Shown: piece after piece, positions 5,075 to 42,741 of the stretch
Numbering within the stretch: the first letter of the stretch is position 1
Layout of the letters: each line of letters opens with the position of its first letter
Source: Diplolepis rosae
Lineage: Eukaryota; Arthropoda; Insecta; Hymenoptera; Diplolepididae
Length of the DNA: 64,000 nt
Reading direction: 5' to 3'
Assembly (NCBI GenBank): GCA_030998225.1
Contig: JAPYXD010000466.1
Location: forward strand, 8,287,001 to 8,351,000
Program-made: the position numbers and the translations under genes
Notes under the pieces: model-generated
What the model was told of the DNA's origin: nothing
The model's database searches: none
Seen by the model: only the letters and a program-made list of their open reading frames with translations

Positions 5075-5929
5075 TGTTACGTCACAAGTACGCAAATATA
5101 CTTACTTTGATCGAAGATTCCTCGTTTTAAGTTAGGATCGAATGATCCTCGCTTAGGGATGAGGATAAGTCAATGAAAGACACAATGATTATGAAAATAA
5201 TACAAATTGAATTTATTTTACTGGTTAAAATTTCCGGATATACATTCGTTAAGACAATTCTTATATAATGTAGGCACAGGCTGGTTGGTACGTAGGTGAG
5301 AAAGAGACAAAGAATAAAGATAGAGAGAGAGAGAGGTTCGGTACCTTTATGATTCGTAAGTTGTGTTGAGGTTTAATCCACACGGCGGTGAGTTGTAAGT
5401 ACTGGATCCCCACAGGTGTATTCCAAGCGTGTGAGAGAGACGGAGTTATAGGCCGCACAGGTATATTCCGTAAAGGGCGGCGATTCAAATTTACGACACT
5501 GTTCGAAGATCTTTACAAGATGTATTCAAGTCTACGATGACTTTTACGACTCCCGAACTTTGATTTTAAATTGTCCCGGTCGAATTTTATTAATCTCAAA
5601 CTCAGAGATTTTCGAAGTTAAATTGAAATGCCGCACTGGACTATTGTCGCGAGACCGGTTATAAATCCGAAGGAAAATTTATATGTCGAACTAGACGAAG
5701 AATTTACTGACTGCTTTCTCTTGGTGTGGGCTTCTTTTTATATTTTTTCATACAAATTGACGGTCAGCGAAAATCGTGACGTAGTCATATCTTCTTAGAG
5801 GAGAAGGGGCCCTATACTGCTCCCTACTTCCCCTACTCCCTATTCCCCTTTATCGATTTTCTCATAGATTTCTAACTCAAACCAGCCTGTGTGTATTATA
5901 TACATTCAAATACGTCGCGGGACGTGACA
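5075..5929 (-). repeat. 3' LTR
   Basis: 855 bp, matching 20408-21263 with a few differences: one fewer GA unit in a short (GA)n, single-base changes near the GAAGATCTTTAC block, one T-run length change and ACTGA versus ACTAA. In transcript direction it carries a TATA box (5735-5742), a TCAGT initiator (5706-5710) and an AATAAA signal (5212-5217). This suggests U3 of about 220 bp, a long R of about 500 bp and a U5 of roughly 130 bp. The U3/R/U5 limits are inferred. Confidence 0.95.
5706..5742 (-). promoter_or_regulatory. TATA box and initiator in the 3' LTR
   Basis: In transcript direction TATAAAAA (5742-5735) is followed about 30 bp later by TCAGT (5710-5706), the classic arthropod initiator, so the predicted start is the A opposite base 5708. 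The same pair in the 5' LTR has TATAAAAG but TTAGT. Confidence 0.55.
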
Positions 5930-5940
5930 CCTCCCCCCTC
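5930..5940 (-). promoter_or_regulatory. Polypurine tract for plus-strand priming
   Basis: In transcript direction GAGGGGGGAGG abuts the 3' LTR start TGTCAC. A pure purine run immediately upstream of the 3' LTR is the standard second-strand primer site of LTR retroelements. Confidence 0.85.
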
Positions 5941-6385
5941 AGTTCGAGCGCGGGGAGTTAACGATCCGCGATCGAAACTTCGGTAGAAGAATACATTTTT
6001 TTTGTTTTGAAGAAATACATTCAACTCTTTTTCTGATAACAATATCTGAATGATAAATATAACATTCATTTCTACGTTTGTTCTACAATTTGTATTTTTT
6101 TTTGCATTTTCATAATTTGATAAATTCAAATATTAACATATTTTTTGGATACAAATTTATATTGTCTTGTTATAAATTATTACATATTTTTTTTTTTTTT
6201 TTTTTTTCAAAATAGTTTGAACTTAGTATTAATATAAGGTTACAATGATTTATTTTGTTATATAACTGAATACATTAATATTTTTTATACGTGAATGGGG
6301 TATTTTATATTTGTAAATTATAAATAACATGCTGTAATATATAAAATATAATTTTTATAATGTAGTAGATTAGTGAAAATATTCT
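5941..6385. other. 3' non-coding region of the retrovirus
   Basis: About 445 bp between the last accessory gene and the purine tract. It contains a long T run near 6189-6207 (A-rich in the transcript). No gene or structure recognised. Confidence 0.5.
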
Positions 6386-6850
6386 TTAAGGGTTATTTTT
6401 ATATTTTTTATTACGTAGAGGGTTGCGGCAGTTACGAGCTAAATGTCCTCTTTGAAAACACCTTTCACATGAATTAGTCCATTTTTGTAAAGCTTCTTTA
6501 TTGTTTTTATCGCTTATATTATAAAATTTAGATTCTGTTATTAAGCATTTTTCTAACTTTTCTTCTAAAAATATATATTTCGTGGAAAGTGTTTCCAAGA
6601 CTCTAGCTGCTGCATTTTGTTTTGCTACTTTCTTTTGGGACGCAGGTTCTCCAACACAAGCATAGGTTACATTATTTTTTAAAATTTCACAAGTTGCCTC
6701 GAATGGCGGTAGTTCTTGATGTATTCCAAGAGATTTTACTGTGTATTCTGGTATTGAAAAATCATATTCAATACTTATTTCATTAAGTATTTGTACTGCG
6801 CTACCCTTTGTCAAATCTCTTTGTTGCATTGCCATTGTCCTTATCTGCAA
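6386..6850 (-). CDS. dsRNA-binding domain plus CCHC zinc-knuckle protein (candidate RNAi suppressor)
   Basis: An intact 154-codon frame and the last gene before the 3' LTR. Residues about 16-90 have the layout of a double-stranded RNA-binding domain: a first helix (AVQILNEIS), a middle strand with PPFEATCEI, then the signature second helix containing GEPASQKKVAKQNAAARVL, whose K-K-x-x-K and alanine positions contact the dsRNA backbone in this family. A retroviral-type CCHC knuckle follows at C128-x2-C131-x4-H136-x4-C141, then a basic tail. A small dsRBD protein encoded by an insect virus often sequesters Dicer substrates or small RNAs, so suppression of RNA silencing is the leading inference. 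Genome packaging is the alternative, given the knuckle. There are nearby in-frame Mets at residues 6 and 8, so the exact start is uncertain. How it is expressed (spliced or subgenomic) is not visible. Confidence 0.8.
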   Translation of the reverse strand: MQIRTMAMQQRDLTKGSAVQILNEISIEYDFSIPEYTVKSLGIHQELPPFEATCEILKNNVTYACVGEPASQKKVAKQNAAARVLETLSTKYIFLEEKLEKCLITESKFYNISDKNNKEALQKWTNSCERCFQRGHLARNCRNPLRNKKYKNNP

Positions 6851-6943
6851 AAGAATTATCTATTTGAGTTGTTTGTGATTTAATTTGATATAAATGGAAA
6901 TTAGTTATTATTATTGTTAATAATTATGTATATGGATTATAAG

Positions 6944-7306
6944 TTATTCGTTTTCCGCGTTTGCTAACTCAAAGAGATATTCAGTGCAAAGAAAACATTG
7001 GTCTGCTCTGAAACGTATGAAAAAAATTTGCTCTTCGCAGACAGAACATTTTAATCCGTTAAGATCCGTGGTTACAATGTGGCGGTTAAGGAAAGGTACA
7101 GATATTTCTGATTCAAAAAAGGTAATTTTAAATCTGTAACATTCTTTACATATGAATTTTTGATCTAAAGTATTCTGATATATTTCGTTTTCTGGAGAGT
7201 AACAACAAAAATGTTTCATAATTATTTGATCGATATACGGTTGGTAGTACTGTTCGTCGTTTTCTGGATTTTCGGCTTGAATGGATTCAAAATCATGCGG
7301 CAGCAT
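6944..7306 (-). CDS. Cys-rich small accessory protein 2
   Basis: An intact 120-codon frame with no family I can name. It has an acidic N-terminus, then an FCCYS segment and three C-x2-C pairs (CKEC, CSVC, CFLC) spaced as in a zinc-binding fold, and an aromatic-rich IFFIRF segment. It resembles its upstream neighbour at 7480-7836 in overall layout: a conserved FC near residue 33, then a KF(x)C-x2-C-(Y/F) block, then more Cys pairs. The two look like an old tandem duplication. No signal peptide or membrane segment, so it is probably an intracellular zinc protein. Its position between env and the dsRBD gene marks it as an accessory gene. The function is unknown. Confidence 0.65.
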   Translation of the reverse strand: MLPHDFESIQAENPENDEQYYQPYIDQIIMKHFCCYSPENEIYQNTLDQKFICKECYRFKITFFESEISVPFLNRHIVTTDLNGLKCSVCEEQIFFIRFRADQCFLCTEYLFELANAENE

Positions 7307-7479
7307 TTTTCTATAACAAATTCGTTATTGAGCTTTAAAATACTAACTAGATCCTAACAGTGTTTTGCTTAAAGAGAATTTTCTAGACATATTTGAAATT
7401 TTATTTATGACTACAATTTATAATATTTTATCGAAAAACATTTTCAACTATAACTTCGTTTCCTAATTGAAGTTGCATT

Positions 7480-7836
7480 TTATTTTTTAAAGGATTGCTC
7501 AGTACAACCTTTACAGTCGATTGCCCTACAGCGTGGCGTTATTAATGCTTCCCTACAACCGTTACAATTCATATTAACGCATTGTATTTTACAAACTGAG
7601 TGCCATGAGGTACAGAATTCGTATTTATTTTGTTCTGTTATTAGTAATTTTTCGAAACAAAATTGGCAAAATTTCTTTGTTGTTTCCTGACTGTAATAAA
7701 TGAATAAGGTTGACGCTTCTAAGTCGAAACAAAAACTATTTATTAAATGTCCATATGTGATTGGATAATCCTGTGGACATACACCGTCCACAGGTCCTGA
7801 GTGGAACACGATCGGTTCTGCCGCAGTCGGAATCAT
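7480..7836 (-). CDS. Cys-rich small accessory protein 1
   Basis: An intact 118-codon frame. After an N-terminal GPVDGVCPQDYP stretch it has FCFD, then KKFCQFCFEKLLITE, then a dense C-terminal cluster (FCTS, VCKIQC, NCNGC, RCRAIDCKGC) with about a dozen cysteines over 70 residues, typical of a multi-zinc fold. The KKFCQFC block aligns by eye with QKFICKEC of the 6944-7306 protein, suggesting paralogy. No signal peptide. It is separated from env upstream by about 420 bp and from its paralog by about 170 bp. Family and function are not recognised. A possible role in transactivation or host-factor binding is speculation from the retroviral context only. Confidence 0.65.
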   Translation of the reverse strand: MIPTAAEPIVFHSGPVDGVCPQDYPITYGHLINSFCFDLEASTLFIYYSQETTKKFCQFCFEKLLITEQNKYEFCTSWHSVCKIQCVNMNCNGCREALITPRCRAIDCKGCTEQSFKK

Positions 7837-8255
7837 TCTATAAATTTAAAAAGAAAGGGATCTAAATTTACTTAACTATACCCTTGATTATATAATTTTT
7901 ATACTTTATCTATTTAATTCGTGCAAAAGTATCCAAAATTTGATTCTAACAGAAGTTCTACATTATTGAAAGGTATTCTATTTCTCCATTAGAAAAACAA
8001 TTCTTATATTACAATACCCTTACAAAAACTGTTCTTCTAAAGGTACATTCCCAATGATCATGCTGTGGTTTTACAGTATAGAAAGAGAGGGATGGATTGT
8101 ACTTGTACCAGGAAGGTTGAAAGGATGGAACATATGGGTCCTTTTCAGTTTATAGATACGTTTGAAAAGAAGTAGTTAAAATTTTAATGTTAGGTCACTT
8201 AGAAGTGTTTTTGTTGATAGGCTAAGAGGAGTTTTCTGATCTAGTTTAATTTTAT
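7837..8255. other. Gap between env and the accessory genes
   Basis: AT-rich, no open frame of note. It is a plausible location for splice acceptors that express the downstream small genes, but I cannot pick one with confidence. Confidence 0.4.
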
Positions 8256-9956
8256 TTATATTTTTATTAGTTTTTTTGAAATTTTTTGAATTTTAATTAG
8301 TATTATTAATAGAATAATTATTATAAGAAAAGTAACTATAGTATGTGCTATATATATTTTATGTGCACTAGAATTAAAAATAGATGGGATAATTTTCTGA
8401 ATATTAGCATATTTTGTGAGTAGAAAAACATGACTTTCAAAAGTCGATATAAGCATGTCATCTTTTTTATGAAAAAGATGTAACACGTTTTTTAACAAGT
8501 GAGGTTCTGTGATCGACATATTATATAAGAAGGGAGAAATTATTTCAAGAGAAGTGGTCGATTTACTAAGTGGAATTGAGTTATCCATTATTTTTGGGTA
8601 ATTTTTAATATTATAGTATGGAATTGATGAGTCCAAATTACAGTCAGATTCTATTTGTAAAATTCCTATTCCTTGAAGAGTAATAAGGGTTTTGGAATTT
8701 TTGGAGCAAGATAAAAAGATTTGCTTAGGAAGAATAGTTGAATAAAGCCATCCACGGTGTGACAACAGTGGTGTTAAAAAGGGATATTCATTGAAAGTTA
8801 TAAATGTTTTACATTTATACGGTTGGGATTTTATAAACATTGATGTTTCGCAAATAGGATTATTTTGAGTACTGTATATGGAATGAGGAGGGTGACAAAA
8901 ATTTTGAAGTCCATTTTGGTGGCATGAAGCGAGGAAATTTTCATTTGTTGTGAAGTAAGATTCGTTATTTGGAGAAATCGCGATATAAGAAAATTGAGGT
9001 TTTATGAATATAGGTATAATATAATCAGTGTTGAAGTCAAAATGTATAGGGGTTGAATGTGTTTTAAATACTTGAAATTCTTCAGAAGATGGAATTGGTA
9101 TGGTCATAGTAAAAATTAAGTAGTTATTGAAAGTAAAGTATCTTATTCTAGAAAATGGAATGACCATAGAAAAAAGAGACGTTGGAAGGTGAGGGTCTTC
9201 TTTGTTAGATTTGAAGTCTAGGAAGGTATCTGGAAACAGCATGGGGTGCCATAAATTTGTGGCGGCATGGGTCATAGCTTCCGTAAGCTGTGTTAGGAGT
9301 GATAGAAAGGATCGGGATATTTCATGCAAGTCCATCAGCCAATTTGCTGCAAGAATTCTATAAATGTGCAAATTTGGGTAAATTTGTGATTTATGCCAGT
9401 CTTTGTACATCGTAACGTTATTGAGATTGGATGAAAGATTTTTAATTTGTTCAGAAAATGGATTTGGGAGTAGGAACAAATTTTCTTTAGGCCAATAAAG
9501 AGAAGTTTTTTGTCTTATTTTTGATTGTAGAAGAACTTTTTGAATTTGATGTAAAAATGGATCACTATTTTTGGGAATTTTAGTGATGTTATGAGCTTGT
9601 CTGGATATAAATGAAATTTCTCCGAGAAAATAATTTATACGTTCTTTCATAAATTCAAGCTGAGTGTGGTGATTATATATATTACAGTTGTTTGCAATAT
9701 TTGTGAGTATACAATGTTCATAAAGTTTGTGAGATATATCTACTATTTTATATTTTAAGTTTTCTGGTTGCAAAATGTCAAAATAAGAGATAAAATTATA
9801 ATTTTCGGAAAATAGACGTATTTTTGAAATTGGTTCAAAATAAATACCAGATGAGTGATAAAATTGTGAATTGATATACAAGTTATCTGCTTTAGAAGTG
9901 AAAAACAGAATTAGCATCAAGTATACGCCATAAGGTGGTTGGTATAGGAATTTCAT
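8256..9956 (-). CDS. env: Errantivirus/baculovirus-F-type envelope protein
   Basis: An intact 566-codon frame. It starts with a hydrophobic signal-like segment (LMLILFFTSKA) and has a segment near residues 35-60 (GIYFEPISKIRLF, then YFDI) typical of insect errantivirus Env and baculovirus F proteins. A Cys-rich C-terminal ectodomain follows, with the C...C...W...C...G.G.L...C pattern seen in that family. One long hydrophobic span close to the C-terminus (IVTFLIIIILLIILI) is followed by a short basic tail. Such proteins sit in the virion membrane and mediate entry. I do not see a clear furin-type cleavage site, so processing is uncertain. Its ATG overlaps the stop of the upstream glycoprotein by one base (TAATG), suggesting coupled expression. 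It is the second envelope gene in this element. Confidence 0.75.
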   Translation of the reverse strand: MKFLYQPPYGVYLMLILFFTSKADNLYINSQFYHSSGIYFEPISKIRLFSENYNFISYFDILQPENLKYKIVDISHKLYEHCILTNIANNCNIYNHHTQLEFMKERINYFLGEISFISRQAHNITKIPKNSDPFLHQIQKVLLQSKIRQKTSLYWPKENLFLLPNPFSEQIKNLSSNLNNVTMYKDWHKSQIYPNLHIYRILAANWLMDLHEISRSFLSLLTQLTEAMTHAATNLWHPMLFPDTFLDFKSNKEDPHLPTSLFSMVIPFSRIRYFTFNNYLIFTMTIPIPSSEEFQVFKTHSTPIHFDFNTDYIIPIFIKPQFSYIAISPNNESYFTTNENFLASCHQNGLQNFCHPPHSIYSTQNNPICETSMFIKSQPYKCKTFITFNEYPFLTPLLSHRGWLYSTILPKQIFLSCSKNSKTLITLQGIGILQIESDCNLDSSIPYYNIKNYPKIMDNSIPLSKSTTSLEIISPFLYNMSITEPHLLKNVLHLFHKKDDMLISTFESHVFLLTKYANIQKIIPSIFNSSAHKIYIAHTIVTFLIIIILLIILIKIQKISKKLIKI

Positions 9957-11122
9957 TATGCTTCTCGAATGGCTGAATTGGTATTTTCCTTAGGAGTTGA
10001 ACTTTTAGTTTCCTCTATGGAGTTTTGTGGTGCTGAAGCTGTAAGCAGTGGTTGATGGCTCTCAGCGGGAGGTCCAGCAGGTCGGTTGGTACCTAAGTGT
10101 AACAAAAGGTTAGTGACCGAATCCCAGAAGGCGCCTAGTAAATGGAGAGACCATCCAAATAATCTATGTAATGCATAACCATGAATAATGGTATCTGCTA
10201 TTAATTTGATCCCTCTAATTATTATAATTAATCCAATTAGACCTGCACTAGTAGTACCGAAATTTGTAAAAACTGTCCAAAATCTACCCCAAGCTGATTC
10301 AGCAATTTTATCAATTACTTCTTGGTTAAATAAATTTGTCAATGATATTCCTTGATTAATAGTCGGATGTCCTGTTATTTCTCTAGCTAAAGAATTTAAA
10401 ATCATTGGTTTTTCTGCTGGGAACATTATATGATCTCGTAGCTTATCAAGGTCAGATTGAGAATAAATGCCACTTGTTGCTAAGGATGAAGGATTTGTGT
10501 ATTTCCAGGTTGCTTTTGTGAGAGGTTTAACTATAGTTGGTGCTATGGATTCGACAGGATTTGGAAGTAATTTGTACCAGGTTTCTCCAAAAAGGTACAT
10601 TGGTGGAAGGAAAGAATTGCAATTTGTTTGGATGCCTGATTTTGTTAATATATGAGTTCGTGGAGAAAGGAAAAAGGATTGATTTCCTCTAAATATTGGT
10701 AGTTGTAGATAACATTCTTCAGTTTTGCGATATTTTACTTCAACCGGTATACATTTTACGATATGTACTACTTCTCCTGCAATTACTGACATATATCCTG
10801 GGCCTTTCATTAAATGATATGCAAATTCGTCTGGTGATTGGGTTGCTAAGGTTAATGTATTTCTAAAAACTTGCTGTTCAAGTATGCATCGTTGAGTAAG
10901 AACATCGTGATAAAGTCTATTTACTTCAGTGCGTATGTGTCGTTCTACATATATAAATTTAGAGTTGACGTATGTGAAAATGTCCATATTTTGAACTTCT
11001 AAATGTTTATTTTCTAAAAATGAATTCCCAGGTCTGGTTTCAAAAATTAATAATTTTGGATGTTCAGTTTGTATTAAAACGTAACTGCAAACTGGTTTTC
11101 TTGTTTTTTTCAGCCAGTACAA
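9956..11122 (-). CDS. Chuvirus-type glycoprotein, C-terminal part
   Basis: 388 codons continuing the ectodomain of the gene that begins at 11897, in the +1 frame. The listed start is only a TTG inside the shared overlap, so this is not an independent gene. It contains a central ectodomain with repeated Cys positions and a strongly hydrophobic stretch (SAGLIGLIIIIRGIKLIAD), followed by a second hydrophobic region and a Pro/Ser-rich cytoplasmic-like tail (RPAGPPAESHQPLL). This C-terminal layout fits glycoproteins of chuviruses (Jingchuvirales), class III-like fusogens that arthropod LTR elements have captured. It ends TAATG, overlapping the env start. Confidence 0.75.
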   Translation of the reverse strand: MYWLKKTRKPVCSYVLIQTEHPKLLIFETRPGNSFLENKHLEVQNMDIFTYVNSKFIYVERHIRTEVNRLYHDVLTQRCILEQQVFRNTLTLATQSPDEFAYHLMKGPGYMSVIAGEVVHIVKCIPVEVKYRKTEECYLQLPIFRGNQSFFLSPRTHILTKSGIQTNCNSFLPPMYLFGETWYKLLPNPVESIAPTIVKPLTKATWKYTNPSSLATSGIYSQSDLDKLRDHIMFPAEKPMILNSLAREITGHPTINQGISLTNLFNQEVIDKIAESAWGRFWTVFTNFGTTSAGLIGLIIIIRGIKLIADTIIHGYALHRLFGWSLHLLGAFWDSVTNLLLHLGTNRPAGPPAESHQPLLTASAPQNSIEETKSSTPKENTNSAIREA

Positions 11123-11897
11123 AGGTTATATCTTCAGTCGTTAAAGAATACAAGGTTTCAGAAATGTCTGTCGTGTTGTCATATGTTTTATTTGCTGGTC
11201 CTTCATAAATAATTTCATATTTGTTAAAATTACATACGTCATTAGGTAATGTATCCCAGAATGTTTGTCCATATTCTACGTCTGTACAGAATGTGTCTGA
11301 AAGTGTGCATATTATTCCAGATCCTAATTGAATTTTATTTGAATTTAAATGAATAGTCGCGTAATGTTCTTGTAAAGTTATTTTGAATATTGCTTGGACT
11401 ACGACATTATTCCATGTTCCATATGGGTCAGAAAATTGTGTACCAGTACAGTCTCCATTAGGTGTTACAGAACCTGCTAAAGTAACGCTATGAAATGAAG
11501 TTTCATTTACTTTTAACTTTGATATCTGAAGAGAAGGGGTTACTAAAAATGTTCCTATTGTGTGCATTTGATTACATTGATCTCGTGTAACATCATGTAT
11601 ATATTCACTGTGGCCATTTGCAACTATGGAACTGTGAGAATGCATACCACAATGAGAGATGGCGCGTCGAATTTCTATTTTGCATTGTATTACTTTTGTA
11701 TTTGAAAATCCAGTTAATTGTAAAAGTTGTATATGTACTTGAGATCGAGGTAGATCACATTCTCCTACCTCTAGTAAAGATAATGTCGTAATATTTGATT
11801 GATTTGAACCGCAATCGAATCCTATGATGGCGTAGACTGTTGTTATATAGTTGAATTTGCAAATGAGCAGTGCCAAAAGGAAGCCTCGTAATCCCAT
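11064..11897 (-). CDS. Chuvirus-type glycoprotein, N-terminal part (frame broken)
   Basis: 277 codons. The N-terminus has a signal peptide (GFLLALLICKFNYITTVYA) followed by IIGFDCGS and an LLEVGECDLP segment, then VIQCKIEIRRAISHCGMHSH, a stretch I recognise as characteristic of chuvirus glycoproteins and of their copies in arthropod LTR elements. Several N-glycosylation sequons are present. The frame ends at 11064 but coding continues at 11104-11110 in the +1 frame within an A7 run, so the glycoprotein as sequenced is split. It lies between the CARD gene and the second envelope. A captured rhabdo-like or herpes gB-like protein is the less likely alternative. Confidence 0.82.
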   Translation of the reverse strand: MGLRGFLLALLICKFNYITTVYAIIGFDCGSNQSNITTLSLLEVGECDLPRSQVHIQLLQLTGFSNTKVIQCKIEIRRAISHCGMHSHSSIVANGHSEYIHDVTRDQCNQMHTIGTFLVTPSLQISKLKVNETSFHSVTLAGSVTPNGDCTGTQFSDPYGTWNNVVVQAIFKITLQEHYATIHLNSNKIQLGSGIICTLSDTFCTDVEYGQTFWDTLPNDVCNFNKYEIIYEGPANKTYDNTTDISETLYSLTTEDITFVLAEKNKKTSLQLRFNTN

Positions 11898-12042
11898 CTC
11901 TGGAAAAAGGAGGTTCCAATTAGCAGCTTGCTTTGTAAAAAAAAAAGAATGAATAAAATTACTTAATAAACAATTTTGTTATTACTGTTGTATACATATA
12001 TATTTTTTTTATGATATTTATTAAGTTTTTTATTTTATGTAC
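11898..12042. other. Short AT-rich gap between glycoprotein and CARD gene
   Basis: No feature seen. An A-rich run lies just upstream of the glycoprotein ATG. Confidence 0.4.
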
Positions 12043-12324
12043 TTAGTCTATAATATCCAACATGTCAGCTATGACAATATGATCTGATAGGCGTAAACTG
12101 ATAATCAAGTTTTTGTATGCGTCTGGTCCTCTTGTTTTGATTGTTGAAAAAATGTCTTTTATTGTATCTGGATTGTTTAGGTTTTTGCTCCATGTGGGAA
12201 TATTACAGTCGTCTTGGTTAAAAATTCCAGTTTGAATTAAGTATGGCCAGAGAGCTACCATGTCGATAAAACAGGGAACTATTTCAATGAGATCATCTAT
12301 GCGTTTGCGATGAATTTGATCCAT
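12043..12324 (-). CDS. Stand-alone CARD-domain protein (candidate apoptosis or immune modulator)
   Basis: An intact 93-codon frame that is one domain with nothing added. Its pattern is that of the caspase recruitment domain: an N-terminal charged helix (HRKRIDDLIEIV), a helix followed by an LWPYLIQTGIFNQDD segment, and near the end the hallmark TRGPDAYKNLIISLRLSDH followed by IADMLD, which matches the R-G-P-x-A-(F/Y)...L...L...H..LA..L signature of CARDs in initiator caspases and Apaf-1-type adaptors. CARD-only proteins usually work by homotypic binding, blocking or seeding death-fold assemblies. In an insect the obvious targets would be Dronc and Dark, which is inference. It sits between pol and the first glycoprotein, where an ordinary errantivirus has nothing. 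Capture from a host gene is likely. Confidence 0.8.
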   Translation of the reverse strand: MDQIHRKRIDDLIEIVPCFIDMVALWPYLIQTGIFNQDDCNIPTWSKNLNNPDTIKDIFSTIKTRGPDAYKNLIISLRLSDHIVIADMLDIID

Positions 12325-12537
12325 TATATCTGGAATAATGTGTTATGTCTAAATTTGTTGTATATATTTTTTATATAAAATATATATATTTTTATATAAA
12401 TTTTATATATGTATATTTTTTTTTATTTTTACCATTTATCGACAAAATAAAATTTCTATATTTTGTTTAAACTGTATATGTATACATATTTTTTATAATT
12501 AAAGTAAAGATATTTTGTTTGTTATTTTTTTATTTAT
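12325..12537. other. AT-rich gap after pol
   Basis: About 210 bp, very T-rich on the plus strand, with no coding signal. Confidence 0.4.
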
Positions 12538-15500
12538 CTACTTTTGTACTTGTACGTGTGAGCGTTTTAGTCTATTAATGTGAACTACAGTAGGTTTGCC
12601 TTTATAGCTTATTTTGACATTCCCTTTTCCTAACACTTCCAATATTTCATAAGGCCCTGTATAATGGTTCTCTAGTTTTTTTATTTTACCTCCTTTTAAT
12701 ATAAATACGTTGTCTCCAATTTTTACTTCTAAAGGATTTATTTTTTTATCATAATATAATTTCGATTTTTCTTTTGCTGAAATAAGATTCTCTCTTGCTT
12801 GTGTTCGCATTTCATGTAGTTGTGTTACGAAATTAATTAAATAATCGTCATATGTTTGTAATTTTTCTTGTTGTGATAAAGGTTCACTGGAAGGTTCACG
12901 AGCTAGTTTACCAAAAACCAATTCATAGGGTGTGCATTTTGTGCCTTCATGTACACTAGTATTATACGAGAACATTGCTAGTTCAAGCCAATCATCCCAT
13001 TCTGAATTTTTTGCAACAAATTGTTTGAGATATTCTCCTAAAACATGATGTGAACGTTCTAATGATCCGTTTGATTGAGGATGAAAAGCTGTGGTACGAA
13101 ATTGTTTAATTCTAAAACGTTTTGCCAATCTTTTTAATAAATTACTTAAAAAATCTCTGCCTTGGTCAGTAAGTACTCCTTTTGGTGATCCAAATATGCA
13201 AATAAATTTTTTCACAAAAGCATCTGCTATTGTACTAGCTTGGTGATTAGGAAGAGGTATTGCTAAAGAATATTTGGTAAAATTGTCTTGTATCGTTAGA
13301 ATATATAAGTTACCAGATTTTGTTTCAGGTAGTGGACCAACAATGTCCATTGATATTTTTTCAAAAGCAGTAGTGGGTGTGTCTGTGATTACCATAGGAT
13401 TTTTTGTTTTGACTCTGATTAATTTTTTTAATTGACATTGTAAACAGCCTTGAATATATTTTTGAATGCCTACTTTCATATTTTCCCAACAAAATTTTTG
13501 GCGAATTCGAATATAAGTTTTTGTGACGCCTTTATGGCCTCCTAATGCTGAAGAATGAGCTTCTTCAATTAAATGAGTTCGTTGTTCTTTTGTTGGATAT
13601 TGCGTTATTCCATTGCAAACTATAATTTTTGTAGTTGAATTTGAAAAAATTGAGTCAAAAATTGATTTCACTTCTTCCCAAAGTATATGATTAATTCTGG
13701 AAGTTTTAGAAATACTAATTGACCGTAACTTCAGATTTTGAGATAATTCATGTAATGAGTATATTGATAATTTTATATTATTTAATGTTTCGGATAAATT
13801 GTCTTTAGTTTCTTCTTCAATTGGAAGTGCAAAATGGTAGTAGTTTCCTTTTTTAATCTCTTTTGCTATCCCTTTTTGTAAATTTTTAAATTTTGGTAAA
13901 ATTTCACGTTTTTCTAAAGTTTTTGATCCGTTGTCGCGAGGAGTTCCATTTGTTGTAACAAAATATGCATAATTATCTTTTCGCATAGTTAATTGATCGC
14001 GACATTCAACTAAATTTTTCCTTGTTATAATTTTTTCTGTTTGAGGGTTTATAGGAGGAGGTTCTGGGGGTGGGCGATTATAATTATCATGATCTTTATC
14101 GATTTTTTCACAATTTATTTGAGACCTTCGGTTTAATCTCAAATTTTCTTCAAAATAAGGCTCTTCAAATTCTTCTTCCAATTTTTCTTCTTGGTTTTCT
14201 TCAAACTTCTCTTCAAAATTTTCCTCAAGATCGTCTCCAAAATGTTCTTCAAAATTCTGTTCAAAATTCTTTTTGAAATTTTCGTCAAAATCTTCTTCAA
14301 AGTTATCTTCCAAATTTTCTTCATAATTTTCTTCATTGTTTCCTTCGTGTGAGGTTTCAATGTCGTTGATTTCATCTTCTGAGGTTGAAAAATAATTCTC
14401 ACTTTCTTCACTTTCTTCACTTTCAAATTCATTAATATTTTTTGGCTTCTTGGCATTCTTCTTCTTCTTTATGTTTTTTGCTTGAGTTTGTTTCAAATAA
14501 TCTAAATAATCAGGATCAGAGTCGGAATCTGATTCTACTTTCGTTCGGCTTCGCTTTTGCATATTTATTTCTGGTAATTCGTTTTCAAATATTTGTTTTC
14601 TTGGTCTACCTCTCTTTCTTTTTGTTTGGGAGGGGATATTTTTTAAATTTGTAAGTAGATTTTTCATTGGCCTACCTCGTGATTTTTTCACAAGAGGTTT
14701 AGAAGAAAAATTTTCGTCTAATTTTTCTTGAGTTTCATTTCGATTCATATTTTTTGCTTTATCTTGCTCTATTCTCTTTTGAGCTCTTGTAGTAATAGTT
14801 TTCCATGATAAATTTTCGTATTTTTTTGAAAACATTGGACTTAATAAAAATATTGTCATAAAAATAAGTCTTGAAGCCATATTTTTGAATAAATTTGTGT
14901 ATTTTAAAATATTCTTACCAATCTCACTAAATGATTCTTCACTAAGGAATTCTTGTAAAAATTCTGGAATTTTTGTGTGAATATTTAATATTTGGGCTTC
15001 TGGAATTTCGCTAAAATGATCTACGTCGTCTGGTACCATTCCTGGATTCAAGTTTTTTCGTTTTAAAGGTCTTACCTTATTTTTAGAGTTTTCTTGTTTA
15101 TTTCTTGTAAAAGTTTTCTTGGAAAACGTTTTTTCTTTAGAAGTCATGAAAGTATCATTGTCATCAACTTGTAAATATTTTGATTTTTCCTGGCTATCAT
15201 CAATAGGGTTTCTTGAGAGAGCATCTGCATTTACATTCATTTTTCCTGCTTTGTAAATTACATCAAAATCATATTCTGCGAGTTTTAATCTCCAACGTGA
15301 AACTCGTGAACAAGGGTCTTTAGAATTTTGAAACCAAACTAGAGGTTTGTGATCAGTCACCAAAGTAAATTTTCTTCCATACAAATAAGGACGAAAATGA
15401 GTTACACAAAATATTATAGCAAGAGCTTCTTTTTCATATGTATCATATTTTTTCTCAGTATCACTTAGACTACGTGAAGCATATGCTATTGGTTTATCTT

Positions 15501-15846
15501 TACCTATTTTACCTTGTGATAAAATACCTCCTATTGCAAATCCTGAGGCATCTGTTGTGAGTATAAAAGGTTGAGAAAAATCAGGTCGTTGTAAAAGTGG
15601 TTCTTCACATAATTTTGCTTTTAAAATTTCGAAAGCTGCTTGTTGTTTTTCTGTCCAATTAAAAGGTATATCTTTTTTTAGAAGTTGATTTAAAGGACTT
15701 GCAATTTTTGAAAATCCATCAATAAATCGTCTATAATATCCTGCTAAGCCTAAAAATTGTTTAACATTTTTCTGTGTTTTTGGGACTGGAAAGTTTTTTA
15801 CAGCTATTATCTTTTTTTGGATCTGGACGTACTCCATTTTTATCAA
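12538..15846 (-). CDS. pol: Pol: RNase H, AT-hook/acidic insert, integrase
   Basis: 1102 codons open in one frame. Residues 1-20 are out of the true pol frame; coding homologous to pol starts at about residue 12. RNase H follows with D99 (TTDA), E140, D165 (VTDH) and D208 (NADALSR). An atypical insert covers about residues 215-605 with two AT-hook cores (RGRP at 390 and 412), a Ser/Asp-acidic patch, a long Glu/Asn/Phe repeat at 500-566 and a PPPEPPP run. Residues 605-750 resemble the macro-domain-like region found before integrase in several insect Ty3 polyproteins. The integrase has its HHCC finger at about 758-804, then D834, D894 and E930 (D-x59-D-x35-E), and a C-terminal SH3-like barrel (GDNVFILKGGKIKKL). 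RNase H degrades the RNA template and integrase inserts the cDNA. Confidence 0.9.
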   Translation of the reverse strand: MIKMEYVQIQKKIIAVKNFPVPKTQKNVKQFLGLAGYYRRFIDGFSKIASPLNQLLKKDIPFNWTEKQQAAFEILKAKLCEEPLLQRPDFSQPFILTTDASGFAIGGILSQGKIGKDKPIAYASRSLSDTEKKYDTYEKEALAIIFCVTHFRPYLYGRKFTLVTDHKPLVWFQNSKDPCSRVSRWRLKLAEYDFDVIYKAGKMNVNADALSRNPIDDSQEKSKYLQVDDNDTFMTSKEKTFSKKTFTRNKQENSKNKVRPLKRKNLNPGMVPDDVDHFSEIPEAQILNIHTKIPEFLQEFLSEESFSEIGKNILKYTNLFKNMASRLIFMTIFLLSPMFSKKYENLSWKTITTRAQKRIEQDKAKNMNRNETQEKLDENFSSKPLVKKSRGRPMKNLLTNLKNIPSQTKRKRGRPRKQIFENELPEINMQKRSRTKVESDSDSDPDYLDYLKQTQAKNIKKKKNAKKPKNINEFESEESEESENYFSTSEDEINDIETSHEGNNEENYEENLEDNFEEDFDENFKKNFEQNFEEHFGDDLEENFEEKFEENQEEKLEEEFEEPYFEENLRLNRRSQINCEKIDKDHDNYNRPPPEPPPINPQTEKIITRKNLVECRDQLTMRKDNYAYFVTTNGTPRDNGSKTLEKREILPKFKNLQKGIAKEIKKGNYYHFALPIEEETKDNLSETLNNIKLSIYSLHELSQNLKLRSISISKTSRINHILWEEVKSIFDSIFSNSTTKIIVCNGITQYPTKEQRTHLIEEAHSSALGGHKGVTKTYIRIRQKFCWENMKVGIQKYIQGCLQCQLKKLIRVKTKNPMVITDTPTTAFEKISMDIVGPLPETKSGNLYILTIQDNFTKYSLAIPLPNHQASTIADAFVKKFICIFGSPKGVLTDQGRDFLSNLLKRLAKRFRIKQFRTTAFHPQSNGSLERSHHVLGEYLKQFVAKNSEWDDWLELAMFSYNTSVHEGTKCTPYELVFGKLAREPSSEPLSQQEKLQTYDDYLINFVTQLHEMRTQARENLISAKEKSKLYYDKKINPLEVKIGDNVFILKGGKIKKLENHYTGPYEILEVLGKGNVKISYKGKPTVVHINRLKRSHVQVQK
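14046..15201 (-). other. Unusual Pol insert with AT-hooks and acidic repeats
   Basis: This marks residues about 215-600 of the Pol frame. Two RGRP cores, one in the full AT-hook form KRKRGRPRKQ, suggest binding to the minor groove of AT-rich DNA. The acidic part is a run of near-repeats of the type N-F-E-E-N/D. In ordinary Ty3 Pol proteins this interval is short. Possible roles are tethering the pre-integration complex to AT-rich chromatin or binding basic nuclear proteins; both are inference. Confidence 0.7.
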
Positions 15847-16351
15847 TTATATGACCTAAATATCCTACTTCAGGTCGTAAAAATTCGCATTTGTCTGGTT
15901 GTAAGTGAAGATTTGCTTTCCGAAGTCTTTCTGCTAAATTGTTGAATTTAATTTCGTGCTCTTCTAGAGTATTTGCATATATAACTATGTCATCAAGATA
16001 TACAAAAAGTTCCGTTCCGATTAATCCAGTTAATGTTAAATCCATTAATCTCTGAAATGTGGCGGGTGCTGTTTTCAAACCGAAAGGCATTCTATCGAAT
16101 TCGTAATGACCGTGAGGTGTGGAAAATGCGGTTTTATGCGAGTCTTTTGGGTCCATTTTTATATGGTGAAAACCGGTAGCTAAATCAAACACTGAAAAAT
16201 ATTTTGCTGACCCTAGAGAATCAAGTATATCGTTTATATTAGGTAGAGGATACGAATCGCCAATTGTTTTTTCATTTAATTTACGAAAATCAAGAACCAT
16301 TCTCCATTTTATTTTTCCTTGGGAATCAGGTTTTTTAGGAACTATCCACAC
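15761..16351 (-). CDS. pol: Pol: reverse transcriptase core (frame broken at both ends)
   Basis: 196 codons covering fingers and palm of a Ty3-type reverse transcriptase: PKKPDSQGKIKWRMVLDFRK, then LPNINDILDSLG, the first catalytic aspartate at D56 (VFDLATGFH), the FGLKTAPATFQR motif, and the YLDD box at 118-121 (FVYLDDIVIYA). It then runs into the PDKCEFL and YLGHII motifs. It lies +1 relative to protease upstream and the next frame is +1 again. Both switches occur at A-rich runs (about 16385-16395 and 15811-15817). It copies the RNA genome into DNA, primed by tRNA-Gly. The listed start is a GTG within the domain, not a real initiation site. Confidence 0.93.
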   Translation of the reverse strand: MWIVPKKPDSQGKIKWRMVLDFRKLNEKTIGDSYPLPNINDILDSLGSAKYFSVFDLATGFHHIKMDPKDSHKTAFSTPHGHYEFDRMPFGLKTAPATFQRLMDLTLTGLIGTELFVYLDDIVIYANTLEEHEIKFNNLAERLRKANLHLQPDKCEFLRPEVGYLGHIIDKNGVRPDPKKDNSCKKLSSPKNTEKC

Positions 16352-16358
16352 TAGAGTG

Positions 16359-17321
16359 TTATATGGTGATTGTGAGGGCTTGATTACTTTTATTTTTTAA
16401 TAATTCATCGACTTGTCTTGTAATTTCTTCCTTGTGAACTGGGGGAAATCTATATTGTCTTGAAAAAATTGGAGCGTCATCTACAGTAGGAATTGAATGT
16501 TGTAATACATTAGTAGCTTCAAGTGGTTCTCCTGGGATTTGAAATCTGTCTGCATTATTTTTAATTAATTTTTCTACATGTTCATATTCATCTTGATTTA
16601 AGTGGTCTAATCGAAGAAGTTTTTTAATACATTCTACTCTGTCTTCGTCTGTTACATTATAAAATTTGCATGAGTTAATTAGAGAATTGTCAGTTTTTAA
16701 AAGGTTATTTAATATTTTACTTGATAAATCTTCGTTATTTGTTTGTTTGAAATTAATTAAATTTTCAATTTGTTTATAACATTCTTGTTCTTCAAAGTCT
16801 TCTAAATTAACTAATGGGACGGATAATGTAATTGGGATTTCATTTGTGTTTGCAAATTTTAAATAAGCTTTTCCTCTGTGATTTTTTACAACTGCGTCAC
16901 CTACGTAGACGCCATCTTGGATATGTAATCGAGGTACATACCCTTCACTCTTTTCTGTATTTTTTATATTAACATAAAATGTTGTAACTGTTCGAGCTGG
17001 AATAGTAAATGTATTGGTAGATTTAAAAGGGTAACAGTGGTTCTCAATTTCTAAGCATTTTGAAGTATAGTTTATATTCACACTATTATCTTGAAAAAAT
17101 TCTGATCCTAATACTCCATCTTCTTCTACTAGAACTTCATTGGGAATAATGTTAAATATCGTTGGATAACCAAAAATGTTTATTTTTACCTGCCCTAACG
17201 TGTAAAGTGGTAAATCATTAATTCCTGTAAGTTTCAATACGTTTTGGCTATTTATGGGTACTTCAGGGTTGAGAACCTTTTGTTTAATTAAATTTCGAGC
17301 AGCACCAGTATCAATCATCAT
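16359..17321 (-). CDS. pol: Pol: aspartic protease and linker to RT
   Basis: 320 codons. The active-site triplet D-T-G is at residues 4-6 (MIDTGAARNLI), followed by the ILGxxF-like VLGSEFF segment near residue 71 as in retropepsins. The remaining 200 residues are the protease-RT linker ending in the conserved QYRFPPVHKEEI lead-in to RT. The same frame is open upstream of the first Met to about 17450, overlapping the end of gag, and is -1 relative to gag. That is the usual gag-to-pol ribosomal frameshift arrangement of errantiviruses. It cleaves the Gag and Pol precursors during maturation. Confidence 0.88.
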   Translation of the reverse strand: MMIDTGAARNLIKQKVLNPEVPINSQNVLKLTGINDLPLYTLGQVKINIFGYPTIFNIIPNEVLVEEDGVLGSEFFQDNSVNINYTSKCLEIENHCYPFKSTNTFTIPARTVTTFYVNIKNTEKSEGYVPRLHIQDGVYVGDAVVKNHRGKAYLKFANTNEIPITLSVPLVNLEDFEEQECYKQIENLINFKQTNNEDLSSKILNNLLKTDNSLINSCKFYNVTDEDRVECIKKLLRLDHLNQDEYEHVEKLIKNNADRFQIPGEPLEATNVLQHSIPTVDDAPIFSRQYRFPPVHKEEITRQVDELLKNKSNQALTITI

Positions 17322-17440
17322 GTGTGTTGGATTTTTTAGACCTTCCGTTGATATTATAATTGATGGAATTGAAGTGGACTTTGAAATATTTATTGTTGTT
17401 GTTGTATGATCGTTAGAAGTGGATGCCAGTGGTTCTCGAT

Positions 17441-18190
17441 TTATGCTTTCCTCAGTGCACCCGTGCTGGGGAGAGCTTTGGAGTTTTCCTGATTAGCTGT
17501 TTGTGATTGGTTATTTGGTCGTATCTTGCAATCTCGTACTAAATGGCCGGGTTTTTTACAATAATTGCAAACTACTTCAGTATAATTTGAATTTTGTTGA
17601 TTATTATTATTTTGTAAAAACCTATATTCATATGGTTTATTTCGATTTTGAGACTGTCCTAAGTTAAAGTTTTTATACTGTCCTGGATTCCGTTGTCTAT
17701 TATTATTATTAACATTATTGTTATTATTGTAAAAATTTCTAGGAAAATTATTATTGTTGTATCTTTGTTGTAAAAAATTATTATTATTGTTTTTATAATT
17801 ATTATTTCTATTTTGCAAATTATTATTGTTATTGTTATTAAAATTATAATTTTTATTTCTTAAAAAATTGTTATTCGGAAAATTATTGTAATTGTTTCTT
17901 GCAAAATTATTATTATTATTACTTCTTTGACCATTGAAATTACTATATCCTTGTTGGTTAGGACGCAAAAAATTTTTTTGTTTATTATTAAAAACTGCAT
18001 CTTGAGCTTTACTTAAATGAAAACATTTTTCAGTTGTGTGACCTGGTTTTTTACAAATTAAACAAATAGTTTTATTTTCAAGTGCTACGTTGAATCTGGT
18101 GGTTTTATCAATTTTATTATTATTAGTTGATTCTTCGGTTTTTAAATAATCATTACTTTTATTTCTTCGCAGTGCAGAACTTGCAGCCAA
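17441..18190 (-). CDS. gag: Gag: nucleocapsid with two CCHC knuckles
   Basis: 249 codons. CCHC knuckle 1 is at C43-x2-C46-x4-H51-x4-C56 (CLICKKPGHTTEKC) and knuckle 2 at C208-x2-C211-x4-H216-x4-C221 (CNYCKKPGHLVRDC). They are separated by about 150 residues that are mostly Asn with scattered Arg, Tyr and Phe, a low-complexity, probably disordered linker. Nucleocapsid binds and packages the RNA genome. It is in the same frame as the 18242-18496 piece, from which it is cut only by an in-frame TAA (18239-18241). The large Asn-rich spacer between the knuckles is unusual, and an Asn-rich linker like this could phase-separate; that is inference. Confidence 0.88.
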   Translation of the reverse strand: MAASSALRRNKSNDYLKTEESTNNNKIDKTTRFNVALENKTICLICKKPGHTTEKCFHLSKAQDAVFNNKQKNFLRPNQQGYSNFNGQRSNNNNNFARNNYNNFPNNNFLRNKNYNFNNNNNNNLQNRNNNYKNNNNNFLQQRYNNNNFPRNFYNNNNNVNNNNRQRNPGQYKNFNLGQSQNRNKPYEYRFLQNNNNQQNSNYTEVVCNYCKKPGHLVRDCKIRPNNQSQTANQENSKALPSTGALRKA

Positions 18191-18241
18191 TCTTCGTTCT
18201 ATGTCTATTGTATCATTAATTACTTCCTTAAATGTGTCATT

Positions 18242-18496
18242 TTATTCTACACGAATTTCTAACTCAGGACGAAAACCTCGAATAAAACATTGAATTACAT
18301 CTCTTTCTAAATTTTGTTTGAAAGCATTATCTACCTGACCGTCATTATTAAGTCTGTGAGCATCTTCTATTCTATCAGCAATTTCCTTAATTCTAGCAGC
18401 ATAGGAAAGGACATTTTCTCTTTCCCACATAAATGTATTACCTAATTCTCCCTGCAATTGATATACGCTTTTCGCAGGGGCATATACTCTTTTCAA
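18242..18496 (-). pseudogene. gag: Gag: capsid C-terminal fragment
   Basis: 84 codons in the same frame as the nucleocapsid piece. Helical and charged (YAARIKEIADRIEDA, then DVIQCFIRGFRPELE), typical of the capsid C-terminal domain of Ty3 and Arc-like Gags. It ends at the in-frame TAA before the nucleocapsid piece, and a second in-frame TAA precedes it near 18523, so Gag as sequenced is interrupted twice here. Confidence 0.8.
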
Positions 18497-18573
18497 TTTT
18501 TCTATTAATTCCTCTATTGTTTAATACTTTGACCCAAAAATACATTTTCGTGCCTCACCAGACAATTTACCTC

Positions 18574-19305
18574 TCAATAGACGTGCAAGATTTTCTTGGG
18601 CAGCAGGTGTCGGCAGCATTGCCTTTGCTTCCATGCAACCCTCAATAAAATGGACAATGGGAGGTTACTTCCGTCGAACAAAGGGACCACCTCTAGCGCG
18701 TCGCGTAAGGATACCTGCTGGCTGTTAGGTATGGCTACGGCCATCTCTTCGTAGTTTACTATTACGGGATTATCCTGATTTATGACTTCTGTATCGCTTT
18801 TGTCGTCGTCGCTATCGTTGTTACTAATTAGAGAGTCGCGTGCCAATGAGGTTTTCAATTTTTCTTTCAAAGTTTTGTTTTCTATTGTTATTACCGTTGA
18901 GCTTAGCAAATTAGATTCGTCAAAATAAGATAATTCGTTCGTTAAAGTTTGATCTTGATTACTAGATCCTGTCACAATGCTTAAATCTTGACAAAAACTT
19001 GAATGAAACCCGCTAGTTTTACTGGAATTTTCACTTAATATGCTTTGATCATTAATTAGCGTCTTGTCAAAACGTGAATCGTCTAGCTGAAGAGTGTCAT
19101 CTAATTCTTGTTCAGCAGGAAAAGGGTTTGAAATATCTTTGTATTTATTATCGACTAAATTTCCCTTGATTTTACCTGATCTTTTTAGTTTCAAGGAATC
19201 TATTTGATTCTGATCCACAATTTTTGCGAGTTGGTTATCTTGTTTGGCTTTACTACGTGTGATAACCTTTTGGGCGGATTCTACAGGGGTATTTGAATTT
19301 GACAT
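18574..19305 (-). pseudogene. gag: Gag: N-terminal part (frame broken near 18650)
   Basis: 243 codons from a good ATG, the first gene after the leader. The N-terminal two-thirds is Ser/Asp/Asn-rich with acidic clusters (NNDSDDDKSDTEVI) and short basic segments, consistent with a matrix-like region. Coding similarity to capsid begins near VPLFDGS (about 18680) and then leaves this frame near 18650, so the last 25 residues are out-of-frame translation. Gag forms the particle shell. Together with the two stops downstream this makes the copy Gag-defective as sequenced. Confidence 0.8.
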
Positions 19306-20374
19306 TGAGTCATTATAAATTTACAGTTTCTTTTTGTTGAGCGTTATCTTAGATTATTTATTGTTAATTATCAATTGTTTATAACAATTTTAAAAAACTA
19401 CATGTAAAATTTTGTTTGTTAATAAAGTGAAATTAGTAAAAGTATAATTTTAGTTTAAAACCAATCATAAAAATGATATTAATAATAATTATTTAATTAT
19501 TTTTATTTGTTTATAACAAAATTAAAATTTGTACTCTTTTATTGGGAAATAAAATAACAAAATGAGAATATAATTCTATAAAACATTCAAATAAATAAAT
19601 AATCGCTCAAATTTTTTTGTAAAATTATAATGTTAAATAAAACATTTGTTAAAATTATAACAATATATATATATATATGTATATTTATTTTGTACCAACC
19701 ACGTGTGTCTTTTGTAAACTATAATAATCTATGTTATTAAATTAATAAATTATAAATTGTTTTTTTTTTTTTGTTTAAATAAATAAAATTGTTTATAACA
19801 AGGATCAGATAAGATTCGAGTTATGCACAATTTATTCTTCTCTAGACTGGACAAGTTAGGCTCAAGCTCAGATCCTTGGACAATCTTTGCAAATAAAAAT
19901 ATTCTGTTCCTTAACAGAGTTAAAATCAAAGTTATAAACAATACAATCACAAGCACTTCGAACTTTGCCCTACCCAATGATCGTAATCAATGGTGACCGT
20001 TCAACGTACCCAAAAGGGACTTATACTCTCGTGTGCTGTTTTTTTGTTTGTTTTAACTTAAATCAAAACTTAGTTAACAAATTAGAATAATTTTTTAATA
20101 AGATAAGTTACTTAATCACTTAGGTTAGCCTCAAGGTCAGATCCCTGCGTGATTTTTCAAACTTATTTTATTTTATACAATTTATATAAATTATAAAATT
20201 TCAAAGAAATGATTTGATTATTAAATCATTAAGGTTAGCCTCAAGGTCAAATCCCTTTATGATCTAACAAATCTATTTTATTGAAATTTCAAGTTACAAG
20301 TTGAAATAATATTTCATAATCATTTATTTATTCACTAGAAATAATCAATGTGTTAATTTTCAATTGACTTGTGT
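19306..20374 (-). promoter_or_regulatory. Long leader with repeated motif (possible insulator or packaging region)
   Basis: About 1.07 kb between primer site and gag ATG, long for a Ty3 element. In transcript direction the motif GGATCTGACCTTGAGGCTAA occurs near 20150-20120 and with one change near 20260-20226, and a weaker copy (GGATCTGAGCTTGAGCCTAA) lies near 19880-19845. Repeats in this position in gypsy form an insulator, so a comparable role, or RNA packaging, is possible. The minus-strand open frame at 19750-19977 is not convincing as a gene. Confidence 0.5.
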
Positions 20375-20393
20375 TTCCCGGGCCGATGCACCA
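20375..20393 (-). promoter_or_regulatory. Primer binding site, tRNA-Gly type
   Basis: In transcript direction TGGTGCATCGGCCCGGGAA begins 14 nt after the 5' LTR. It is complementary to the CCA-tailed 3' end of tRNA-Gly, with one extra C relative to the usual GCATCGGCCGGGAA. It primes first-strand synthesis. The 14-nt gap from the LTR is longer than normal. Confidence 0.8.
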
Positions 20394-20407
20394 GAAAAAA
20401 GGAAGTA

Positions 20408-21263
20408 TGTTACGTCACAAGTACGCAAATATACTTACTTTGATCGAAGATTCCTCGTTTTAAGTTAGGATCGAATGATCCTCGCTTAGGGATGAGGATA
20501 AGTCAATGAAAGACACAATGATTATGAAAATAATACAAATTGAATTTATTTTACTGGTTAAAATTTCCGGATATACATTCGTTAAGACAATTCTTATATA
20601 ATGTAGGCACAGGCTGGTTGGTACGTAGGTGAGAAAGAGACAAAGAATAAAGATAGAGAGAGAGAGAGAGGTTCGGTACCTTTATGATTCGTAAGTTGTG
20701 TTGAGGTTTAATCCACACGGCGGTGAGTTGTAAGTACTGGATCCCCACAGGTGTATTCCAAGCGTGTGAGAGAGACGGAGTTATAGGCCGCACAGGTATA
20801 TTCCGTAAAGGGCGGCGATTCAAATTTACGACACTGTTCAAAGATCTTTACAAGATCTATTCAAGTCTACGATGACTTTTACGACTCCCGAACTTTGATT
20901 TTAAATTGTCCCGGTCGAATTTTATTAATCTCAAACTCAGAGATTTTCGAAGTTAAATTGAAATGCCGCACTGGACTATTGTCGCGAGACCGGTTATAAA
21001 TCCGAAGGAAAATTTATATGTCGAACTAGACGAAGAATTTACTAACTGCTTTCTCTTGGTGTGGGCTTCTTTTATATTTTTTCATACAAATTGACGGTCA
21101 GCGAAAATCGTGACGTAGTCATATCTTCTTAGAGGAGAAGGGGCCCTATACTGCTCCCTACTTCCCCTACTCCCTATTCCCCTTTATCGATTTTCTCATA
21201 GATTTCTAACTCAAACCAGCCTGTGTGTATTATATACATTCAAATACGTCGCGGGACGTGACA
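20408..21263 (-). repeat. 5' LTR
   Basis: 856 bp, the promoter-bearing LTR for this minus-strand element. AATAAA lies at 20545-20550 in transcript sense. The copy at 5075-5929 differs at only about five positions. The LTR ends TGT...ACA and is followed on the plus-strand right by CATA, the second target duplication. Confidence 0.95.
21041..21076 (-). promoter_or_regulatory. Core promoter of the retrovirus
   Basis: In transcript direction TATAAAA (21076-21070) lies about 30 bp before TTAGT (21045-21041). The other LTR has the consensus initiator TCAGT here, so the 5' LTR has lost the C and may start transcription less precisely. Confidence 0.5.
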
Positions 21264-21267
21264 CATA

Positions 21268-42678: not shown

Positions 42679-42741
<63 letters not shown>

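Follow-up and report, generated by a model that had tools for sequence, protein, structure and literature searches.

Can an insect Ty3/gypsy element carry several accessory genes as a lasting part of its genome, or has a single copy collected foreign insertions? This question is raised by a 64,000-nucleotide stretch of the genome of the hymenopteran Diplolepis rosae (assembly GCA_030998225.1, contig JAPYXD010000466.1, positions 8,287,001–8,351,000; hereafter the window), in which positions 5075–21263 are occupied by a Ty3/gypsy element bounded by long terminal repeats (LTRs), with every gene on the minus strand. We found that this element is a damaged copy of a young, many-copy family. It is rather probable that the family consists of endogenous retroviruses that have two envelopes and an accessory set likely disarming RNA interference and apoptosis, with an envelope as the likely carrier from cell to cell.

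Recurrence of the Accessory Block

The fullest gene order downstream of pol comprises eight genes: a predicted CARD gene, a chuvirus-type glycoprotein gene, a gene with tandem double-stranded RNA (dsRNA)-binding domains (dsRBDs), a second dsRBD gene (dsRBD-CC1), an F-type envelope gene, two Cys-rich genes (CysA and CysB), and a third dsRBD gene (dsRBD-CC3). Further copies were sought in the window's own genome (758 Mb, 428 contigs). In the LTR search, the best 40 of 2,083 first-look candidates were scored, all of which showed 98% or higher identity. Six further LTR pairs were fetched, and four of them (C298, C202, C387, and C24) contain the block in the same order; the CARD gene is missing from C24, and of the F-type envelope C387 retains just the initial 30 residues. 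Flanks differ from site to site. Target duplications, compared in the window copy and the six others, are exactly 4 bp long in five of the seven (window, C154, C202, C387, and C24); C298 has five shared bases at its flanks and C394 has none. Because the gene order repeats at sites independent of one another, most of them having target duplications of their own, an assembly join inside the element is ruled out.

Gene searches covered the best 150 of 1,168 (CARD), 1,612 (tandem dsRBD), and 2,322 (dsRBD-CC3) first-look candidates, of which 141, 134, and approximately 85, respectively, are free of stop codons (hand count; frameshifts not counted). Among these best 150 matches per gene, the tandem dsRBD gene lies downstream of the CARD gene on the same strand at least 90 times (median distance 2,485 bp), dsRBD-CC3 lies downstream of CARD at least 88 times (median 7,117 bp) and downstream of the tandem dsRBD gene at least 81 times, and all three genes follow in order in at least 66 copies. 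The wrong order within 12 kb was observed 0, 1, and 1 times for the three pairings, and opposite strands 0, 0, and 1 times, among the matches listed. A scored CARD gene is located within 13 kb of at least 23 of the best 40 LTRs. At the 18 plus-strand loci (of 30) whose gene neighbors were checked, the end of integrase was found upstream at 17, the glycoprotein downstream at 17, and both at 16. Since the CARD, tandem dsRBD, and last dsRBD genes keep their order in so many copies, the block is not passenger cargo; it moves with the element as a unit. A first-pass annotation, made from the sequence of the window, had suggested looking for further copies with the same gene order, and the window's own genome contains them, both among the fetched copies and as three-gene chains.

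That annotation had also named copies with the same LTRs but without the accessory genes as a finding that would speak against it. Such copies do exist: the remaining two of the six, C394 and C154, lack the block and share LTR, gag, and pol at high identity, their LTRs being 98% identical to those of the window. However, both have a common noncoding stretch of approximately 1.65 kb (97% identical) in place of the block and therefore represent one sister subfamily. This short subfamily (C154 and C394) may ride on the proteins of the complex form.

A Diverged Subfamily and Purifying Selection

A second subfamily is visible among the tandem dsRBD matches, at least 48 of the best 150 clustering at 85–87% identity with near-equal scores at the end of the list (hand count). 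One copy of it, L091, has the same gene order and was compared with C298 for all genes except the glycoprotein, which was taken from C202. Amino acid identity to L091 is 95% for the glycoprotein, 88% for CARD, 86% for tandem dsRBD, 79% for dsRBD-CC1, 72% for the F-type envelope, 64% for CysA, and 40% for CysB. Synonymous divergence (dS) is 0.13–0.28 in the left part of the block (CARD, glycoprotein, and tandem dsRBD) versus 0.85–1.95 in the right part (dsRBD-CC1, F-type envelope, and CysA), with CysB saturated. This contrast points to recombination between the subfamilies near the tandem dsRBD gene.

Between subfamilies, the ratio of nonsynonymous to synonymous divergence (dN/dS) is 0.13–0.27 for the six genes where it was computable, the values of 0.17 and 0.13 for the two envelopes indicating strong purifying selection; as a control, three genes read one base out of frame gave 1.07–2.73. 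The dsRBD-CC3 gene of L091 is not one open frame. Within the genome, where 20 stop-free copies per gene plus the window copy were used (a choice that biases towards function), the median dN/dS is 0.17 for dsRBD-CC3 (170 of 210 pairs, those whose dS exceeds 0.1; highest value 0.84) and 0.195 for CARD (111 of 210 pairs, chosen likewise). Purifying selection acts on seven of the eight post-pol genes, CysB excluded; to this extent the accessory genes are kept by selection, as they are in complex retroviruses.

Structure of the Window Copy

The features of the window copy are given in table 1. Its LTRs have TG...CA termini and differ from each other by 3 substitutions over 854 aligned positions and by two or three small indels, the number being set by the choice of ends; in the copies compared, paired LTRs differ by 0–5 substitutions per approximately 852 positions. 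The LTRs, CATA duplication, primer site, and purine tract listed in the first-pass annotation were all located, the primer site as a primer-site-like stretch only, which we take to match the 3' end of tRNA-Gly.

Table 1. Features of the Ty3/gypsy element, in window coordinates
Feature	Position	Strand	Details
Target-site duplication CATA	5071..5074	.	adjoining 3' LTR
3' LTR	5075..5929	-	855 bp
Polypurine tract GAGGGGGGAGG	5930..5940	-	immediately ahead of 3' LTR
dsRBD-CC3	6386..6835	-	dsRNA-binding domain and CCHC zinc knuckle, 149 aa
CysB	6944..7306	-	accessory gene, Cys-rich
CysA	7480..7836	-	accessory gene, Cys-rich
Envelope 2	8256..9956	-	baculovirus-F-type (errantivirus-type), 566 aa; PF12259, E 2e-17
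Envelope 1	9956..11897	-	chuvirus-type (Monjiviricetes) fusion glycoprotein; split in two frames, 11064-11897 and 9956-11125
Deletion junction	9973..9977	-	deletion of ~1.5 kb in window copy
Accessory gene 1	12043..12324	-	predicted CARD protein, 93 aa
pol	12538..17492	-	protease (DTGA), RT (YLDD), RNase H, acidic linker, integrase with GPY; three frames in window copy
gag region	17441..19320	-	three open stretches, CCHC zinc knuckle; interrupted
Primer-binding-site-like stretch TGGTGCATCGGCC	20376..20393	-	begins 14 nt past 5' LTR
5' LTR	20408..21263	-	856 bp
Target-site duplication CATA	21264..21267	.	adjoining 5' LTR

In pol, reverse transcriptase (RT), RNase H, and integrase were detected by Pfam, and the DTGA, YLDD, and GPY motifs were read from the translation, DTGA being the support for the protease. 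Relative to gag, pol is read in the -1 frame, and the two overlap at 17441–17492, as deduced from the frames. The full gag-pol reported earlier holds for content but not for open frames, as both genes are interrupted in the window copy; another copy has a 622-codon open frame at the gag position. The acidic linker between RNase H and integrase contains a 12-bp repeat (14141–14335). At locus L011 (approximately 8177–8927), an insertion inside the integrase region of one copy contains an open reading frame (ORF) with a DUF4817 helix-turn-helix and is probably another transposon.

Comparison with solved structures placed the element RT closest to Ty3 RT (149 and 147 bits), followed by a chain named 'Enzymatic polyprotein' (120 bits); retroviral RTs score 56 bits or less, and the element RT does not belong to the retroviral lineage in this comparison. 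The TG...CA LTRs, the order protease–RT–RNase H–integrase, and an RT nearest to Ty3 assign the element to the Metaviridae (Ty3/gypsy). The Pao peptidase family is a mark of Pao elements; no such family was detected for pol in Pfam at E <= 0.01, and by this mark and its Ty3-type RT pol is not of BEL/Pao type.

The extra frames noticed earlier are genuine, and among them are two envelope genes of unlike type rather than one env. Both halves of the chuvirus-type glycoprotein match PF24664 (E 9e-86 and 1e-149), and in another copy it is intact as one frame of 676 amino acids. Matches of this glycoprotein to glutathione transferase in the solved-structure search were weak and were taken as chance. 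The F-type envelope gene, downstream of pol as in errantiviruses, scores 63.5 bits against PF12259 in the window copy and 81.7 bits in the diverged subfamily. An RXXR site is absent from the three F-type envelopes scanned in the window's subfamily (those of the window copy, L012, and L019), and RQAR is present in that of L091; a loose fusion-peptide pattern had no match in any of the four. Most silkworm endogenous retrovirus envelopes also lack a furin site and fusion peptide, according to the extract of a published study (PMC6085415), so their absence is not unusual among insect elements. Near the C terminus, both envelopes have a hydrophobic, anchor-like stretch as judged by hydropathy only. 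A strong GC skew (0.40 on the plus strand) marks the region 8001–10000, which takes in the F-type envelope along with the end of the first one; the coding strand there is C-rich and G-poor.

The CARD gene scores 19.4 bits against PF00619 (E 0.0011), which is under the Pfam cut-off of 23.9, and is therefore labeled as predicted; the precomputed Pfam column gives PF00619 for two of its relatives (P0096 and P0111), and its predicted structure matches a six-helix CARD fold. For dsRBD-CC3, the score against PF00035 is 31.3 bits (E 3e-7), over the cut-off of 23. The approximately 1.5 kb between the envelopes in C298 consists of the tandem dsRBD gene (243 amino acids; two dsRBDs, 54.8 bits) and dsRBD-CC1 (194 amino acids; one dsRBD, 18.3 bits, under the same cut-off). 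Matches to both genes were also obtained in C387, C24, and L091, with some of the frames broken; in C202, dsRBD-CC1 is accompanied by no more than the end of the tandem dsRBD gene. The window copy is a deletion derivative without two of the three dsRBD genes. Weak similarity between CysA and CysB (BLASTP 6e-4) suggests that CysB is probably a diverged duplicate of CysA. Neither has a Pfam family, and structure prediction for CysA gave no confident model (pLDDT 37). A CysB-like fragment after CysB in L091 (7590–7705) may indicate that the Cys-rich family once had three members.

CARD, CysA, and CysB are without Pfam-level support and nonetheless recur in other copies. The five extra frames of the first-pass annotation are thus real, going beyond chance both in Pfam E-values and in recurrence, but the window copy has six such genes. 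In the protein database, 53 relatives of the CARD protein were found, including one, 58% identical, of the wasp Leptopilina boulardi, together with 66 relatives of dsRBD-CC3 and 34 of CysA and CysB combined; nearly all of these accessory-protein relatives are on short contigs. Scans of viral contigs with dsRBD-CC3, CARD, and the chuvirus-type glycoprotein revealed no relatives, and Pfam linked none of the accessory genes to a retroviral family.

Possible Functions and Alternative Explanations

A reasonable hypothesis is that the chuvirus-type class III glycoprotein serves as the working envelope, which might make the element infectious, and that it has replaced the F-type envelope in this task. 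The latter would then persist in a different function, much as happened in group I baculoviruses once they had gained GP64; the absence of RXXR from the three copies of the window's subfamily would fit such a change. The three dsRBD proteins may bind double-stranded RNA of the element or compete with Dicer partners of the Loquacious/R2D2 type, which would blunt silencing by small interfering RNAs (siRNAs) and perhaps by piwi-interacting RNAs (piRNAs). The small CARD protein might bind the CARD of Dronc or Dark and so block apoptosome assembly. The post-pol genes would be expressed from spliced RNAs. A stronger version, which we put forward tentatively as quite possible, is that the family is a true insect lineage of complex retroviruses, still mobile, that gained a chuvirus class III envelope, kept the F-type one, and encodes three dsRNA-binding suppressors of siRNA and piRNA silencing and a viral CARD jamming the Dronc/Dark apoptosome. 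Such a retroelement, if real, would be the first known to combine dsRNA-binding silencing suppressors with a viral CARD.

Other interpretations of the same genes were considered. The accessory proteins could instead be replication machinery, the dsRBD/zinc-knuckle proteins packaging or chaperoning a long genomic RNA and the CARD protein acting as an oligomerizing scaffold. Both dsRBD-CC3 and dsRBD-CC1 couple a dsRBD to a CCHC knuckle, as in Gag nucleocapsid, the element is unusually long, and three dsRBD genes per element are many for a suppressor. However, the short subfamily, whose LTR, gag, and pol are the same, has moved without these genes (two copies), so basic retrotransposition may not depend on them, although they could be supplied in trans. 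Moreover, CARD folds are chiefly familiar from the signaling of apoptosis and innate immunity, as the names of the structural matches indicate. We therefore regard this role as rather unlikely. With regard to the envelopes, joint use or use in different tissues of two functional proteins, rather than replacement of the F-type one, would agree with the strong purifying selection on both, their anchor-like stretches, and the RQAR retained in the diverged subfamily. It agrees less well with the missing RXXR and fusion-peptide matches, and there is a baculovirus precedent, reported in the extract of PMC4741009, in which the envelope was replaced and a remnant F was retained; on balance such double use appears unlikely, though by no means negligible.

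Two further explanations concern the origin of the block. The short, envelope-less subfamily might be ancestral, the complex form having acquired the whole block in recent steps, and the high identity of LTR, gag, and pol in the two forms would fit this order of events. Nevertheless, the block is already present in the diverged subfamily with a right-part dS of 0.85–1.95, compared with LTRs that are 98% identical, which makes the block far older than the split of the short form, whose replacement noncoding stretch fits a derived deletion; a recent acquisition is improbable. Finally, copies such as C154 and C394 could be taken to mean that the block consists of passengers of one copy or of an assembly artifact. 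Its recurrence in the same order, in four of six further copies at separate sites, in at least 66 three-gene chains, and in a subfamily with a dS of 0.85 or more over part of the block, refutes this explanation and leaves it with virtually no probability.

The textbook case of a piRNA-pathway target is the insect endogenous retrovirus. In the open-licence literature searched, we found no insect endogenous retrovirus with its own candidate RNA-silencing suppressor or CARD. If the functions proposed above (RNA interference suppression by the dsRBD proteins and interference with apoptosis by CARD) hold, arms-race models derived from simple errantiviruses omit a class that fights back.

Other Elements in the Window

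Several other mobile-element-like features are present in the window. The stretch 51699–55921 is a non-LTR retrotransposon, GC-rich (approximately 0.55), that encodes an endonuclease domain and an RT domain (Pfam RVT_1, 103.6 bits), and the first of the ORFs at 58536–60532 matches a tnp2-family transposase (PF02992, 41.8 bits). At 22236–26289, a pair of 263-bp inverted repeats (94% complementary) surrounds ORFs that look hAT-like by eye and gave no Pfam match. Another pair of inverted repeats, 199 nt long, 99% complementary, and 3.1 kb apart, occupies 42160–45665.

Comparison with Known Systems

No Ty3/gypsy element with such a gene set was found in the open-licence literature searched, a scope outside which Repbase and closed journals lie; within that scope, the earlier view that the element is undescribed holds. 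The evidence likewise supports reading it as an endogenous retrovirus of the Ty3/gypsy type that has several accessory genes, the block being present in dozens of copies and in a diverged subfamily, with seven of eight genes under selection. Among the known systems that come close are the errantiviruses (gypsy, ZAM, and Idefix; Metaviridae), which share the Ty3/gypsy pol, LTRs, 4-bp duplication, pol frame at -1 to gag, and F-type envelope after pol. Classical errantiviruses have one env, whereas here a second envelope, of chuvirus type, is added together with six accessory genes, and the element spans approximately 16.2 kb from LTR to LTR in the window and approximately 18.5 kb in C298 (including an insertion).

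A set of several accessory genes downstream of pol and around env is common to this element and the vertebrate complex retroviruses (lentiviruses, deltaretroviruses, and spumaviruses). In contrast to these retroviruses, the element has an RT of Ty3 type and two envelopes, and none of its accessory genes matched a retroviral Pfam family. The parallel drawn in the first-pass annotation is therefore one of organization, not of descent. Accessory genes are also found in insect Ty3/gypsy retrotransposons of the MDG1 group, which have the conserved small ORFs sORF1 and sORF2 (PMC11952523; this and the following papers are drawn on in extract). However, those ORFs are located upstream of gag (after pol in some Lepidoptera) and sORF2 is FAST-fusogen-like, whereas the present set follows pol and includes predicted CARD and dsRBD proteins.

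A captured glycoprotein of the same type, also following pol in our element, is known from Anakin, a mosquito LTR retroelement that carries a chuvirus glycoprotein (PMC7642597). Anakin belongs to BEL/Pao, whereas the present element is Ty3/gypsy and has a second envelope and accessory genes. According to the extract of one survey, glycoproteins of this kind have Gypsy fragments next to them in Hymenoptera and Coleoptera, with no clear sign that Gypsy elements captured them (PMC10084718). In 19 ant genomes, 253 'Mono-Chu' elements were reported, 89.7% of them glycoproteins and 224 in ant-specific clades (PMC6540820). The element offers a carrier for chuvirus-type glycoproteins, a kind that is plentiful in ant genomes and also occurs in wasps (PMC6540820; PMC10084718). 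Finally, group I alphabaculoviruses gained GP64 and kept a remnant F (PMC4741009). They are large DNA viruses with an unrelated genome, but they resemble the element in pairing a class III glycoprotein with an F-type protein whose role as the main fusogen may have been lost, and the element provides another natural case of a class III envelope arriving next to an F-type one.

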